Shown in pieces: positions 49,674 to 60,957 of a stretch of DNA of 64,000 nucleotides; the first letter of the stretch is position 1, and the number at the start of each line of letters is the position of its first letter. The DNA lies in assembly GCF_025024155.1 (NCBI RefSeq), contig NW_026251773.1:1-64000 (forward strand). The letters run 5' to 3'. The stretch comes from Gamsiella multidivaricata (Eukaryota > Mortierellomycota > Mortierellomycetes > Mortierellales > Mortierellaceae). The notes below the pieces were generated by a model. It did no database searches. It was not told the origin of the DNA and saw only the letters and a list, made by a program, of their open reading frames with translations. A program made the position numbers and the translations under genes.

Positions 49674-50000
49674 TTCCATTCGAACTAAAAACGAAAACGC
49701 TGAGGAAAAATGGCAATAAAAAAAAATGGCAATAAAAAAGAAAAGTCGGCATGTTTAGGGACATGGTGTATGTCTAGGACTGAGAGAATGATTTATTGTA
49801 CAGGGTGTTGTTTGATTTTGTGAAACGCTTCTGATGATGGTGCGACAAAGATCCAAGGAAATAAGGCGATTCAAGTTGAGCTATTTAATCTCTAGCCGAT
49901 CCATCCCTACAATTGTGGATATATCAATGTATACGCTCGTTAGATCATCCATGCAATAGATGAGGGATCGAGCGGCAGCAATCGAATGAAAAAAGAAAAA
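49674..50000. other. Short intergenic region between convergent genes
   Basis: 327 bp between the PSMG2 and SPT4 stops. It has two AAAAAATGGCAATAAA units (49708-49735) that also look like polyadenylation signals. Nothing else recognised. Confidence 0.5.
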
Positions 50001-50639
50001 TTACCTTGGTCGGTACTTGATACCCTTTGATTCTAGATCGTCCTCAATATCCTCGGGCAAACGTCCTTGCACCTGAACTGCGTAGATGCCCTTTTCGAAT
50101 TTATCTATTATGGACGCGACAAACAAAGGTACAGACAATTGATCAGTATCGTTGCAGCGCCATCCATGACTATTTGGTTCTCGCCTCGGTAACTGAAGTC
50201 CATTCTCACCGATGCGCTGCCACTTGGCGACCCAGCTCTCTGAAGGCTGCATCACAGCAATTGCACTTGAAGAGAGAGATGACGAAACAATTGAAAAGTG
50301 TGAGTCGAATGTGGTTGAGGAAAGAAGGTATCAGCATAACATCCTGTTTCCTATTGTTTCCATACCCATCGTAGTGCTGGCTGGTACAGTCCATGACCCT
50401 ATCCATGTGCCCTCGCATCTCCAGCAGTGATTCGCAATTGTCGCATCCATTCTTGAAAAACTGTTCTTGCTTCTATAGGTGAGAGGATGGTACGAGTGTA
50501 CGTGATAAGGGGTTAGTATTCGAGCAGGTGCTGAGCAGTTCGTGTTCTTTACCGAGCGAGGTATGATCCTTGCCTTGATAAGCGAGCAAAGTAGACAGGC
50601 TCTAAGTTGCTTCTTGTCCGTAGGAATGATGCCCGACAT
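50001..50639 (-). CDS. SPT4: Transcription elongation factor Spt4
   Basis: Four exons: 50639-50553, 50472-50366, 50265-50210, 50104-50001; introns 80, 100 and 105 nt; 117 residues. The zinc finger is split between exons: RACLLCSLIK (two Cys) and KNGCDNCESL (two Cys). Then come HMDRVMDCTSQHYDGAIAVM and SESWVAKWQRIDKF, the Spt5-contacting part, and a short acidic/basic end. Spt4 with Spt5 (DSIF) promotes elongation by RNA polymerases I and II. The segment between the finger halves (ARIIPRSKQEQ) is slightly longer than in yeast, but no better splice exists. Divergent from ESA1. Confidence 0.92.
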
Positions 50640-52646
<2,007 letters not shown>

Positions 52647-52715
52647 CAAACGGTCCAATGAATGGATTCAGTCTGCAATAATAAAGTTAAGCTTCAAAAC
52701 AAACAGTATATTTCC

Positions 52716-52832
52716 TATTGGGGTCCTAAAAATTTTTTGGATGGGGGAACTGTGCCAGTATCCCAAATTCGAAAGAAATACTTGGGGGATATTACTCTGG
52801 ATTCCTCCTAGTGTAGTATTAGGATCCCAATA
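52716..52832. repeat. Small inverted-repeat (MITE-like) element
   Basis: 117 bp bounded by TATTGGGGTCCTAA (52716-52729) and, on the opposite strand, TATTGGGATCCTAA (52832-52819); 13 of 14 match. Lies between ESA1 and the Crypton recombinase. Confidence 0.5.
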
Positions 52833-52982
52833 CAATGCACTCACTTTTTTCTACTGTCTGTAGGTCTGTAGAATAAAAAAAAAAAAAAAAAAAAAAGGCT
52901 GGCTGCACCATCTCATCTCCATTCTCATGTCGCATGTTGCACGTCTTAATGGTCATAATGGCAAGCTTTTTTTATTCACTTT

Positions 52983-55900
52983 CTATCTCTCTACGTCAAG
53001 TGTTTTCACGTACCGGTTCATAGACATCGTTTGGAGCTGCTCTTCTACTGATTGTAGAGCTGCTTCAACCCTCAACTCCAATGTGGACCCAGGCATCCGC
53101 AAGGAGGTTTTCAACACCGAGCGGATCAGACGCCTCTTGTAGTAGAATTGCTTTGACCGCGTGTTAGCTTTCTGGTCGCTCCCCTTCCGCCACTTGGACT
53201 TGTAGTGCTTGTTGAGTTGCCAAAGTGATGGTTGCCCATTCAGTCCAAAGAACCACTCCTTCCATTGGTCTCGAAGAGGATCGTCGCGTCCAAGCATGAT
53301 GTGGTCAGCAATAAAAGGTGGTTGATATCTAGGGTACGCCAGCGCTTCTTCCATTTGGTCCATTTGGTCCTCTATGTCATGCTCTTCAGGCTGTGGTTGA
53401 TGCTCTGGCGGTTGAAGCGCCTGTTCCTGGTCCGGTAGATGCAAGGTGGCTTCCTGATGGATTTCCGATTGCTGTTCCTGCTCATCTTCTTGTTCCACCA
53501 CCGCTTGCTCCTGCTCCGCCGCTGTTTCTTGTTCTTCACCCGGCAGTTGTCGTTCTACTTGAGAACGTTGAACACGAACATGCGGCTGGAGCGTATGCAA
53601 TAGCTGATGTCCTTGGGGCTGAATTAGCTGTTGCGTTTTCTCTATAAGCTGGATGTACAGCTCTTGCGCTTGCGCTAGTTGCGGGCTGGGTCCCAGATTT
53701 CGGAGTAGCTGCAACCCCTGCATTTGATCCTGTTGAAGTTGTCGTAAGCCATTCAAGTTCTGTTGACTCTGTGGTTGACGCCCTTGATCTGCTCCCTGCT
53801 GCTCCCTCTGAGATAAATTGGTTATCGCTTGAGTGAGGCCAGATGATATGTCGAAGGCAAAGCTGACGAGAGCGCTGAATCGATCGTCGATTCGAGCCTT
53901 AATGGTGGAGGTAGCCTCCATGAGGTCTTCTCTCTGCTCGTTTCTTACAGCAGATGTGGTCTTGAGGAGCTCGTTGAGTACGCGGTTATTCTGCTCATCT
54001 CGCATGTGCAGCGAGCGGAATTCGTGGTTGATGGCTGGAGCGTTTGCGGCAAGGCTGTCCGATACCGGGGAGCGTGTAGTTTCTATGCTGTGAAGTAAGC
54101 GTTCCTGGAACCTCAAGAATAGAGTGCTGCCAAATAAACGATCTCTGAAGATGTGGTGCTCGCCGTAACGAAATTCGGAAGTTCGAAGATTGATGAGAAC
54201 CGCAGCGTCTTGAAGAAGGACTTTGCGCAGATGTGTCAATAGAAGAAGGATGCGCAGCTTGGGGATGTCCTGGCTCAGAATTTTCATCCTGGTGTTGGAA
54301 GGCCGATCCTCGAATATATCGCGATCCATCATGATATTGGAAGTCCATACGAGCCAATCCTCGGAATCCGTGAAGTAGTGTTCGATAAATGGGAAGACTT
54401 GTCGCTGAAGGTCAATAGGCGGGATGAGAGTATTTCGCGCGAGCCATAGACGCTCCCCTGGCAATGTGCACCCGGCCATTTTCAGAGCCACCTGCGCAGA
54501 ATGTCGGTCCAGATAATGTGTCGCCACGCGATCAACGCTCCAGTGTCCAGCTTGCGCAATTGAGGCGATGTCCGCCCCGGCCGCGAGAGCATGGCGCGCT
54601 CCAGAACCTCGATGCGCATGAGTGGGCTTGTTCGTTGGGTTGGCCGATTTATTCCACATTGTGGCGGCATGCCTGTACTGTGCACTGTGTGACAACTGCT
54701 TCAACGGATCCCCTCCTGCATATAGGATGAAGATCTCGCTCCAGGAGTGTTCGTTGAAATCCGGAGGGCTTCTTGGATGCTACAAAGGAAGAAATGAAAA
54801 GGCGATTGTTATGAGCGCGAAAAAAAAAAAAATTAAAAAAAATTAAAAAAAAAAATTAAAAAAAAAATTAAGGAAAAAAATTAAAAAAAAATAGAGGAAT
54901 AGAGGAGAGAGATCATACCATCCACAGTTCATAGAGGTAGAGTACGAAGGCACCGACGGGGCAGACCTCAACATCCTTGCTTCGCACTATAACTCCTTTA
55001 TTCTCCTTGCCCTCGCGGTTCGTTTTCCCTCGTAGCATCGAAAGAGAGATACCAACAACACTTTGTCCTCCAGAGTTTCCTTGATTGACGGTGTGAGTGG
55101 CGAGGTCAGCCAATGTAGCCATCCTCATGTTTTCACCGCGCATTACCATATAGTGGGACCATACAGCGTTAAGCCGAGTGCGGAGGCCAACGACATCGTG
55201 CTTCCTTCCACCGCCTAGATGCCGGTACTTGTGGGTCCAAGCTGTCTTCATCGTCTGCCTCAACACCTCCAAGTCGTTTCCCTCGTCAAAGGTCAGATCG
55301 GTCGAGACCATAGATTTCTTCAGCGCGGCCACTCTTAGCTGATACTTCTTCATGAGCGTCCGGACATGAGCGGAGCGTGGGTGGGGCTCGTTTTGCATGG
55401 CCTTGTTTGAGGAGTCGGATTTCTGGCTGACATAAAGATCGATGGCGGCCTTGATATACGCATCCACCGTTTCGTAGGAAGGCAGGGGCAGGTTTGGATC
55501 GTACGCCAGCCGTTGCTGAGATCGGACCTTTGGGTTGGCGCGTAAAGGTTCGATACCTTTCATAGGGTCTGGCTCCTCAGCAACATTCTCAGCCATATAT
55601 CGCTGAAACTTCTTGCAGTAAACGTTGATATCTGGGTATCCTTTTCGACGGCACCACTCCTGGAGAGATAGAAGTCAAGCATTAGGTCAGGTTCATTAGG
55701 TTTTACGCGTGCTTGTTGCGAGTATAAGGTATTAGAGGCAGTGCGAACCTCACACTTACCACCCAATGCCGCTGGTATCGTTCGTACATTGATACGGTCG
55801 ATTTGGTCAAAAGTGCCTGGCGTTCTTGCTGGATCATAAGGTCGATTTCTTGTTCTGCCAGCGTGTTCATCATCATTCCTAATCTCTGTCCTGAAACCTG

Positions 55901-56519
55901 TCCATCCGCAAGCTCCATTTCTACTCCTGCCTCGGCCAGAGAGTTCTCCACAGCTCGTCGACGTTGTTCTCGCAGACCCTCCTGGACCTGGGATATTGTT
56001 TGCCGGCTTCGCGTGCGGGACGACAGGCTGGTCACCAATGTAGAGGAGGACGCCTCGCTGGAACCGCTGGAAAGCAAGGCCGAGGGCCGAGGATACATCT
56101 CACGGTGAACAGATTTCTCTAGAGCTCTTGGTGACAGGTGTTGCTGGGTTGCATGTTGTTGAGAGAATTGCGGTTGCATGGAAGGGCCATGACCCATGTC
56201 GACAACCTCATCACAGGAGGGAGTAATGAGGCCTTCGAAAAGAGTCTCGGGTACCATCTCTTGCTCCACCTCTTCCAGCTCCTCCAGCTCCTCTCCTCTG
56301 TCGGAACCGCCGACGGACAACGCTGCTATGCAGACATGTAGGCGAAAGGAGAGCGAACCGTTGAGCGCCAGTCTGCCATGGACGTGCTCCGTCTAGACGA
56401 ATGTCGCGTCGATTGTCATTGAAGATGAGCGTGCATTTACCATTAGGAATTGGGTTTTGGGAAGAAGAGCCAGCTCGGCTGCTGGGGCCGTGGGTATATG
56501 GGGTGTGTGGGTGCTCCAT
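52983..56519 (-). CDS. Crypton-type tyrosine recombinase with GCR1_C domain
   Basis: Four exons: 56519-56441, 56325-55760, 55659-54919, 54779-52983; introns 115, 100 and 139 nt, all in phase; 1060 residues. A core-binding region starts YERYQRHWVEWCRRKGYPDI (about 207-226). The catalytic domain has Arg in MRGENMR (about 389), GKTNREGKENKG and VCPVGAFVLYLYELW, then HAHRGSGARH (His 516, Arg 519), AQAGHW (His 541) and THYLDR (Tyr 551): the full R-H-R-H-Y set. A long Gln/Glu-rich coiled coil follows and the protein ends with a GCR1_C DNA-binding domain (QWKEWFFGLNGQPSLWQLNK, YYKRRLIRSVL). This combination defines Crypton transposons, which insert by site-specific recombination. No frameshift or stop is present. 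The third intron is almost pure A/T runs. Confidence 0.85.
52983..56519 (-). mobile_element. Crypton DNA transposon (minimum extent = its gene)
   Basis: Cryptons carry only a tyrosine-recombinase gene and lack terminal inverted repeats, so the ends cannot be seen in one copy. The true element should extend somewhat beyond the gene, at most from the ESA1 end (52646) to the small membrane-protein gene (57212). Confidence 0.7.
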
Positions 56520-57211
56520 TGCTGTAGACTTTGTCGAGAATGATGGTGGATGGAGTGGGTGGAGTGTCTGAGTGTGCCTGAGTGCGACGCGTTTGTTCAG
56601 TAAACAACATCTGGGTCCTGGTTTCCCAATCCTTATAGTGGTCTCTATTGTAAAGCACTAGGATTCAATTCAATTCGCACTGATTTAATGTAAATTAGGA
56701 TCTTTTTTTGCAAAATATCGTCACAGTACATGTACTTGATGGATCCATAGCTGAGAGCAGAAACCTGGCTCATCATTTCACGCAAGTCCCATGCCTCAAT
56801 TGCTCGTTAAATGAAAGAACCACGCCTCCCTGTTAATATTGTTTATTAGCTCATATCCCAGAGACCACCCTCGTTAGAGACATGAGCTTATCTGCCTACT
56901 GGTGCTATGTATTCAAGAGGCGCTATACATGCAATGCAACGACGCATGTACCGAAGACGGTGAACAACCCTTTTTCCTTTCCGTAGCACTCATCCAGGCC
57001 GCGCACGCACTCATTCACAAGGTAGAAAGCGCAAATGGTATGGCCTCATCGCTCCATGTGGATGGGATGCTTCGATGATAGATAAGCAATCCCCATCCCA
57101 TGTGAAGGCTGAGGCAATTCAAGTGCTATGCGGGTATCTGAAGGAGCGCGGCGGGGATCACGAGCGAGTGAGCAAGCAACGGGGCTCCTCTTGTTTCTTA
57201 TCAATGGCACC
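56520..57211. other. Upstream region of the Crypton gene
   Basis: About 690 bp with no recognisable gene. The right end of the Crypton probably lies in it. Short AT-rich part near 56660-56720. Confidence 0.4.
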
Positions 57212-57577
57212 TTAAGAATGGGCGAGGCAAGCTCGAATGCCAAAGATCAGGCAAACGGCCAGGAGCACTAACACCGGGAACAAAGCTACGAAGCTGATCG
57301 GGGATATGATCATACAATGCCACACACTTCGACCTCCGTGAGTGGCCGCGAATGTGGATGTTTCTTCTTGAACGACCGTGGAGGCGGGACTGATCTGCGG
57401 AGATGGTAAGCTGGCCGAATCGACATCCACAATTACTGGATTAGCCATGAGCAGAACCTCGGATTGTGCGCCGGTGAGGTTATCTGGCTGTGGGGGCTCC
57501 GGCTGAGGGGCTGGCTGTGGAAGAGGGCCGACATGATTCGGAGCCGTATTAGGGTATCGACGCATGGCAGAGTTCAT
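57212..57577 (-). CDS. Small Pro-rich membrane protein, unknown
   Basis: Intronless frame of 121 codons. Residues 1-85 are hydrophilic and Pro/Gln/Glu-rich (QPAPQPEPPQP), and a hydrophobic helix occupies about residues 88-115 (ISPISFVALFPVLVLLAVCL), leaving a very short tail. That is the layout of a tail-anchored or single-pass protein. I do not recognise a family. The ATG context is good and composition is not random, but there is no homology support. It lies between the Crypton and the capping protein gene and could be part of an insertion. Confidence 0.45.
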   Translation of the reverse strand: MNSAMRRYPNTAPNHVGPLPQPAPQPEPPQPDNLTGAQSEVLLMANPVIVDVDSASLPSPQISPASTVVQEETSTFAATHGGRSVWHCMIISPISFVALFPVLVLLAVCLIFGIRACLAHS

Positions 57578-57869
57578 GATGGAGCGGGTGCTGTGGGTAT
57601 AGGAACGGGGTGTGGAGTAGGAAAATAAGATGCGAGATTATTACCCTAAATCGCTTTGTTTTTATAGGCAAGAAAAGAAGAAAGACTGCGCCCGAAATGC
57701 ACTATTACATTAGTGATCCTGCGGAGGGAAAGGATAGAATCTTGCTTCGCCAGGATCGTGGTTCTAAAAATTCCTATGTGCCATGCGAAAAAAAAAAAAG
57801 ATACACTCGGTCCCCCAAGAATAACAAACGATCATATTCACCAACATAAAATGAGTCTTTCTTCCAGGC

Positions 57870-57902
<33 letters not shown>

Positions 57903-57981
57903 TGCTATTAAAGATAAACATTTAATTTTTTTATTGGGTGCTTTGCTCACTTAAAGAGTCGCCTCTTTATAGTCAACACAT
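57578..57981. other. Intergenic region with poly-A run
   Basis: About 400 bp containing an A31 homopolymer (57870-57900). No gene. Confidence 0.5.
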
Positions 57982-59385
57982 TCACTGTTGAGTCTTTGGC
58001 TGTCTCTCTTGAAGTTTGGACGCAATCTCCCTCTGCATTTCTTGTTGTCTCTTGATCTTCGCCAGCGACTCACTCGAACGCAGGTCATTGACGGTATCCT
58101 TCGTCTTTCCGAAATAAACGTCCTTCAGCAAGTGTCGCATCTTGATCTCCATTTCCTCAACCATGCGTCCAATGTTGGCGATGTGCATCGAAGGGTCATC
58201 AACCAGACTGTCTTGCTCGGCCTATGAAGAAAATCCGAGACGCAAGAACGCAAGGCATTCCAGCCGCATTGTCCAATTTGAGAACTGGGCCACTGGGTCA
58301 TAACGTAGAGAACAAAAATGGGCATCTATTTTTGCCACAAAAATAAAATAAATTATAGACGAACCTGGCGCGTCATACTCCCACTCAGATTCATATGGCC
58401 GAGTTCCGGCTTGTTTGTAACCATGTACAACATCACGGTCGATGTCAGTTGGTAGTGTGCGTTGCGACCCTTCTCTTGAACATCAAAGACGTGAATTGAG
58501 TCCCACGCGCCCTTCATTCTGCGGTTACCATCGCCGACTATCGAAAATAAAAACAACAAAAAAAAAAAAAAAAGCGGACATCAGTGGTGAGATGATTCCT
58601 GCACAGACGTGATGGTGTGCACTGACGATCTCCCTTTAAAAGATCCGGATCTATTGCAGCTGAAAAGCACATCGAAAGGCGTACCTTTCTTGATCAGGAC
58701 GACTCCAGCAAATCCAGGATCCAAGTCCCAAAAGTATACTGACGAGACACCCCCTTCAAAGTACAGTTCCCTGTAGGTATCAAAGGCGTCGTTGGCTGCC
58801 TGCTCCAGTCTGCGAAGCTTTGATGAGGGATACGTTGCTTCAGCCAAAGGCGGGGAGAACTCGTTCGACCATGGTGATCTACAAGCAAGCGTCGATAGAA
58901 TGTTAAACGAGTTAATAACCAATGTCGGGTCAAGCGCCCATGGCATTACAGACAAAATATGCTACTAATGCACCTTTCGACGCACCACTGCCTACCTGTA
59001 AGAGTTACCGTCGCGGTTGTATTCGCACAAGAGGTATTCTTTGCCTGTCTTCGCACAGGTCTGGACCTTCAGCGGTTGGTCAACGGTGTTAAGCAAGTCT
59101 TCAGTCAAGTCAGGAAGGAGCGTGACAAGCGAGGCCAGGTTCTCCTCTGCATTTTGAGGAGGCAGGCGACGCATCAGGTCGAGCGCCAGGTTCACCTGAG
59201 GGTTGACTTCTTCATCCTGCATGTCCTGCGAAACGACAAGCAACATGTCAACGGTCTCTGTTAATGGTTGTCGTTGTCCTTGGTATGATGCAAGGCGGCA
59301 AGTGGGAATAGGTGTAGCACAGGGTGACTCGAGCATTCACTTTTCATGGAAGAGGCCCAGGAGAGCAAGTACGCATGCTTACCAT
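57982..59385 (-). CDS. CAP2: F-actin-capping protein subunit beta
   Basis: Five exons: 59385-59383 (the ATG only), 59225-58996, 58878-58685, 58537-58365, 58221-57982; introns 157, 117, 147 and 143 nt; 279 residues, as in animal CAPZB. Blocks: [90 protein letters not shown] and [31 protein letters not shown]. With the alpha subunit it caps actin barbed ends. The start could instead be the second ATG (59222-59220, after the first intron), which would shorten the protein by two residues; the ATG ending exactly at a GTAAGC donor favours the split start. Confidence 0.93.
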
Positions 59386-59515
59386 GGTCGATGTGATGAT
59401 GATGATGTGATTGATTCGATAAGATGTCGAGAAAAAAGTAGGAAAGATGCTGATGCCTGACTCTTGCCTATCCCCTGTTGCCCCTGAAAGCCGTCGCTTG
59501 GGACCCACAACACGT

Positions 59516-60957
59516 CACGACAAGGACAAAACCTCACCGTAATGACCTGCAACTCATCAAGATCCCAGAGCTCGTCAGCTTAATCGCCCCGACACCTCTC
59601 GCCGAGCGACCTAACCGTTTGTCTGCGTGTCAACCACAACTGATTGAGGCCACTTTACCGGGACTATCTGTGTCTTTGATTATGAATACGCGCTATGGAC
59701 TTCCCCACAAGAGCACGACAGCGGCGGCGACACAAGGCTAGGTGGGAGCAGTGTCCACCAATATGCACATTTCATCAAGACCGCCACCATCGCCAATGCT
59801 TTCTCCTTGCAGTACCTGGGAGACAATTGCACCAGTTTGACACGTATCTCCAATATAAAAAGCGCGCGTGAGGCAGAACATGCCGCTTAGCGCTAGGGGA
59901 TGTCAGCTTCCTACGCGACAATTGTCCATGTTTGAGTCAAGCTAATTAGTCAAGATCCAGAGATCAGAATGAACCTTTCGAAAGTTGCCAGGGACGTGGA
60001 CAGGGTCGCAGCAGCTCTAGGACAGTTATCGGGCCTCGAAAACCTCACTGTTTCAGAACTACCGCAGCAGGACACACTAGAACTCTTGCTCGATCATTGT
60101 CTCAACATTCACACTTTAACATGGAGTCCAGAAAGGTCCTCCGCTGTCGTACAATGACTGCTGTGTTGTTCGGACCAAGAGACGTTTACTTACATTCGGT
60201 GCCTAGATACACAGGCGATTGCCTTGGACCCTTGTTACAAAGATGCCGGGTTACTCGAACGTTATGGATTCCCAATCGACGCAGGAGAAGACCTTTTTCT
60301 ATAGTTAGTCACCACCATTTCTGCAGTTTGTCCCAAGATCCGGCGAGTTGACATTATTCAAAGACGTGAATATTATGCAAATCAGTCGAGCATGCTGGGC
60401 CGAACGCTGGCAGGCTTCCCTCAGCCTGTATCTTTGTGGTTGCAGCTGATCAGGGTTGACTTCTCGATGGGACATCATCTTTCGTGGATTGGGCTGATGG
60501 ACAAGCCGGAAGAGTGTTATGCGCGAACCCGGATGTTCACTCAGCACACCCCATACCACCTAATCTTTGGGGTACTCGAGCTGTGTCCGAACTTGAGGAT
60601 TTTTGATCTGACTGAGATCCCTACAGTTGATAGACACTTCTTGCAGCTCCATTGGGCGTGTCGGGAGTCTTTAACAGAGCTGGAACTGACCCATTGTCTG
60701 CCAGGATCACATTTACGACTCGGATGGGATGTCCAGGGCTGCACATGTCAGCAATATGGACGAGGGTAGTAGGAAAATACCCTCATCATTGGACAGCTTA
60801 CATCGGCCTCAGCAAGAGCAGATGATGAATCAACTGGTCCAGTTGAAGAACCTTGTGGAGTTGACCATGGACCTTGAGGTCTTAAGAAGATTGGTTCCCA
60901 TAGCAAATGAACGGTGCGGCAATAGCGCGGTTTGTAGAGGTAAAGGGGCCCAAAGCA
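59516..60957 (+). pseudogene. Degraded F-box/leucine-rich-repeat gene
   Basis: The pieces lie in several frames, in the right order. LIKIPELVSLIAP near the start resembles the F-box-like opening of large LRR families in this fungal group; VHQYAHFIKTATIANAF, followed by LQYLGDNCTSLTRI (about 59752-59850); LGQLSGLENLTVSELPQQ (about 60020-60075); LELCPNLRIFDLTEIPTVD, followed by ESLTELELTHCLPG (60575-60710); LVQLKNLVELTMDLEVLRRL (60830-60890). Frame changes and stops between them rule out a working gene, and no splice sites rescue the frame. Start and end are approximate. Confidence 0.65.

Follow-up and report, generated by a model that had tools for sequence, protein, structure and literature searches.

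A recombinase gene lies on the minus strand of a 64,000-nucleotide stretch of Gamsiella multidivaricata DNA (assembly GCF_025024155.1, contig NW_026251773.1, positions 1 to 64,000; the window), and the question raised by this locus is whether the gene belongs to a mobile element or is a host gene kept in place. A preliminary description had read it as an intact Crypton tyrosine-recombinase transposon. The gene was real and had been placed correctly, with the ATG at 56519 and a stop codon ending at 52983. A four-exon splice model gave a protein of 1060 aa with 0 internal stops and three introns of 115, 100 and 139 bp, each of the form GT...AG (splice sites taken from sequence alone). The element extended past the gene on both sides (52703-56728 vs 52983-56519). 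Features are listed by window position.

52703..56728, minus strand: whole Crypton element, 4026 bp; stretch common to five copies, with TACTGT on both sides
56723..56728, minus strand: left (5') terminal direct repeat TACTGT; this end in 5/5 copies
56441..56519, minus strand: exon 1, with the start codon (splice model)
55760..56325, minus strand: exon 2, N-terminal region and predicted start of the core-binding part (splice model)
54919..55659, minus strand: exon 3, predicted core-binding part and first portion of the catalytic part, the latter including R389 in the RGEN box (splice model; NDC10_II, E 4.7e-8)
52983..54779, minus strand: exon 4, catalytic part with H516, R519, H541 and Y551, Gln/Glu-rich linker, GCR1_C (splice model; NDC10_II, E 2.9e-8; GCR1_C, E 1.1e-10)
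53076..53273, minus strand: GCR1_C DNA-binding domain (Pfam PF12550 match)
52703..52708, minus strand: right (3') terminal direct repeat TACTGT; this end in 5/5 copies
50979..52646, plus strand: host neighbour outside the element, frame for an ESA1-like MYST histone acetyltransferase (MOZ_SAS, E 2.8e-85; PDB matches include ESA1)

Exons were compared with Pfam. The tyrosine-recombinase-like NDC10_II model was matched in two halves, one in exon 3 (E 4.7e-8) and the other in exon 4 (E 2.9e-8), and the GCR1_C domain claimed for the protein was recovered in exon 4 (E 1.1e-10; 42.1 bits vs a cut-off of 23). Exon 2 gave no Pfam match above cut-off. The five catalytic residues previously claimed (R, H, R, H, Y) were all located by motif: R389 (RGEN), H516 and R519 (HAHR), H541 (GHW) and Y551 (THYL). 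Their assignment used the motifs together with a sub-threshold alignment to the integron integrase IntI4 (2a3v), which covered the H..R ... GH stretch below significance (E 0.23 and E 0.58). The E 0.58 alignment came from an exon-4 profile built with two relatives and ranked last of the three matches listed, below two low-complexity matches to the linker. The IntI4 alignment is taken as a hint of a tyrosine recombinase, short of proof. An AlphaFold model of exon 4 plus one relative had a mean pLDDT of 39.5, too poor for use. The linker between the recombinase (YR) and GCR1_C domains contained 42 Q and 20 E among 175 residues and aligned poorly among the element protein and the two outside relatives described below (P0001 and P0002). 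It reads as variable low-complexity sequence, and, given that poor alignment, the earlier emphasis on an unusual Gln/Glu coiled coil is not supported.

The genome (37.5 Mb, 180 contigs; repeat counts are lower bounds) was searched for further copies, which had been expected to reveal the ends of the element and did so. Five copies were found, on contigs C143 (the window copy), C31, C96, C57 and C170, with lengths of 4026 (C143), 4027, 4028, 4028 and 4042 bp. All five carried TACTGT at both termini, which set the ends at 52703 and 56728 with a 6-bp direct repeat. Substitutions were confined to three fully linked sites (C143, C57 and C170 vs C31 and C96), and the remaining differences were lengths of homopolymer tracts, mostly poly-T, with the largest such difference in C170. 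Each copy encoded 1060 aa, and because five genomic copies do so the gene is beyond chance. The sole amino-acid difference, G522E in C31 and C96, falls three residues past the catalytic R519; since P0001 and P0002 likewise have G here, the E522 form may be altered in activity.

Sequence outside the left TACTGT was compared among copies. Seven bases, GTACATG, were common to the C143/C31 and C96 sites, whereas C57 had GGAC and C170 CACTG; the common end was therefore set at TACTGT. At the C143/C31 and C96 sites the preferred target may be longer, or the boundary may lie slightly elsewhere. Counting both strands, and with the two at the ends of the element, the window contained 27 occurrences of TACTGT, so that by itself the core confers little target specificity. 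Between the right end and the histone acetyltransferase stop codon there were 56 bp. An inverted repeat around the circle junction (AAATAT, 9 bp, ATATTT) was no better than chance, with 563 of 5000 flank shuffles as good and 64 of 1728 window 80-mers scoring as high. Subterminal repeats common to both ends, examined as candidate GCR1_C sites, amounted to one 9-mer (equalled in 192/500 shuffles) and five 8-mers (equalled in 70/500). Rfam gave no match reaching the gathering score in window positions 50000-60000. At C98:400683-400723 a lone 41-bp stretch resembled the left end of the element (42 aligned columns, 95% identity, G for the first T); the 3-kb locus around it had no element protein match and no TACTGT right end.

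Four distinct left flanks and four distinct right flanks were present among the five copies, only C96 having both flanks unshared with any other copy. C31 and C143 had a common left flank and different right flanks, the sharing extending 5.1 kb to the end of contig C31, with 0 substitutions and 12 single-base gaps over 4550 bases compared. C57 and C170 had a common right flank and different left flanks, the sharing extending 9.1 kb to the end of contig C57, with 1 mismatch and 10 gap openings in the first 4469 columns. The right flank of C31 (1500 bp) occurred once in the genome, and the 5.7 kb beside the right end of the window copy had one other match, of 168 bp at 76%, on C120. Because the differences are almost all indels and the shared flanks run to contig ends, the one-sided sharing is probably misassembly, in which unpolished reads of one locus were misjoined inside the 4-kb repeat. 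The same one-sided pattern (left flank only for C31/C143, right flank only for C57/C170) is what would be seen if, in some nuclei, recombination at or inside the element had swapped chromosome arms between copies. That reading is unlikely: both shared flanks reach a contig end, near indel-only differences are typical of unpolished reads from a single locus, and contigs C1 and C169 likewise share identical sequence near their ends. A broader version is slightly less likely again. It holds that the family is active now, that inter-copy recombination (by the recombinase at TACTGT, or homologous) linked different chromosome arms in a fraction of nuclei and so explains both one-sided shares, and that the E522 sub-lineage was moved by the G522 enzyme or works by itself. 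Separately, a segment beside the C170 copy occurred twice within about 23 kb of that contig (C170:250210-259353 and 273351-279063); the second occurrence, which repeats part of the right flank of C170, was considered as an empty site and rejected, as homology begins 972 bp inside the flank; no empty site was observed.

The identity of the element was weighed against other origins. The Pfam models matched here carry the names of yeast host proteins, and host genes of Crypton origin are described in the available part of PMC3212892, so that a domesticated gene, like yeast GCR1, MSN1/HOT1 or CBF2/NDC10, was considered. Domestication predicts one copy kept in place, which fails here, with five near-identical copies at different places, unless the copies are assembly duplicates; it is very improbable. 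Equally improbable is a tyrosine-recombinase element of another kind, either a DIRS or Ngaro retrotransposon or a Starship captain without cargo. A Starship captain is a DUF3435 protein, and Starships too use tyrosine recombinases according to published abstracts. DIRS and Ngaro elements are likewise said to use them in the available part of PMC3212892. Exons 2-4, however, gave no Pfam match to reverse transcriptase, RNase H or DUF3435, and none of the seven other element frames of at least 100 aa matched Pfam at E 0.1. Each of the five copies is the same 4-kb unit, in which a single gene is recognisable, and its domains are those of CryptonF. The element is thus, with high confidence, an autonomous CryptonF DNA transposon that was recently mobile. 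Recent transposition and not domestication is indicated because the copies differ only at three substitution sites and in homopolymer lengths and their proteins are near-identical; with four left and four right flanks, the earlier reading of a mobile copy, as opposed to a syntenic domesticated gene, was sustained.

Movement of Cryptons as circles was put forward by analogy with prokaryotic elements, and in the scheme given in the available text of PMC3212892 the recombinase joins the terminal repeats, frees a circle and inserts it at a different locus. Applied to this family, the encoded tyrosine recombinase, aided by the GCR1_C DNA-binding domain, would recombine the two TACTGT repeats, and the element would be released in circular form with a single TACTGT. 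This circle would then recombine with a TACTGT at a new place via a covalent tyrosine-DNA intermediate at Y551, and the resulting insertion would be flanked by TACTGT on both sides. The TACTGT pairs, the multiple flanks and the intact protein agree with this scheme. We infer the circle and its excision, the recombination with the target, the role of GCR1_C and present activity.

Relatives were sought in the same genome and outside it. GCR1_C was matched 16 times in the genome, five of these being this family, and NDC10_II 34 times, with ten in this family. Diverged relatives were found by tblastn at C1:1060 kb, C57:314 kb, C22:82 kb, C145:20 kb and C93:1009 kb. The catalytic stretch was read by motif scan in four of the five (not C22), and H541 was replaced in all four, by S in C1, C57 and C145 and by N in C93. 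Beside the C22 relative, at about 82.5-84.7 kb, lies a frame which we take to resemble the end of a Tc1/mariner transposase. A second YR family was present at C155:34500-38500 and C151:96400-100400 (99.2% identity across 3988 bp). Its frames, of 566 and 226 aa, gave an NDC10_II match and no GCR1_C match, and no ends were located for this family. A stretch carrying a diverged GCR1_C relative was identical over 3123 bp on C1, C109 and C169. These loci were rejected as a second multi-copy family, as sharing continues for a further 5 kb, and they represent either a longer duplication or an effect of assembly; on C1 and C169 the identical shared sequence lies near the contig ends.

Two outside relatives came from searches, of limited sensitivity, against some 5.8 billion protein sequences. 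With a query including the Gln-rich linker, scoring was limited to the 7997 candidates with the most shared words and gave one match; without the linker there were two matches among 3891 candidates. P0001, a public-assembly protein, had 49% identity over 68% of the YR region searched and the same H, R, H and Y in the exon-4 part; it differs in being 653 aa long, in beginning at the exon-4 equivalent, in its poorly aligning linker and in a GCR1_C match below cut-off (18.1 vs 23 bits). P0002, the only named relative found, is the Mortierella alpina hypothetical protein EC968_003501. It shares NDC10_II and GCR1_C (39% identity over 71% of the YR region used as query), but has N at the H541 position and is a 654-aa model beginning at the exon-4 equivalent. 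The early-diverging fungal setting proposed for the gene fits this relative.

As a discovery of a kind the element is ordinary. Five near-identical full-length copies with exact ends and a 6-bp core make it a usable subject for circle formation and target choice, and the family also suits study of how an element that excises and reinserts gains copies.

CryptonF elements are described by YR and GCR1_C, and most of those from fungi have 6-bp terminal repeats (PMC3212892, Kojima and Jurka 2011, available part), and the same text lists CryptonF from Rhizopus oryzae, there under Zygomycota. Crypton families are reported from Rhizophagus irregularis in the accessible text of PMC11075540, and a Mucorales genome table in the accessible part of PMC5604411 gives 1037 bases of Crypton for a single genome out of three. 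A literature search on Cryptons in Mortierella, Mucoromycota and early-diverging fungi returned PMC5604411 and papers that look unrelated, in sources that mostly exclude subscription papers and so are weak evidence of absence. The element studied here has R-H-R-Y residues and GCR1_C in the same protein and short (4-6 bp) terminal direct repeats, and stands at several places; the Crypton identity first claimed was thereby borne out and narrowed to CryptonF. As in CryptonF, a single protein carries YR and GCR1_C, the terminal direct repeats are 6 bp, there are no long terminal repeats and the host is a fungus, a likeness judged from the published description in the available part of PMC3212892. 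It differs in forming its own family with TACTGT ends, in its three introns and in its long Gln/Glu-rich linker. The element is a further example of the known CryptonF kind, and the evidence that it moved recently is clean.
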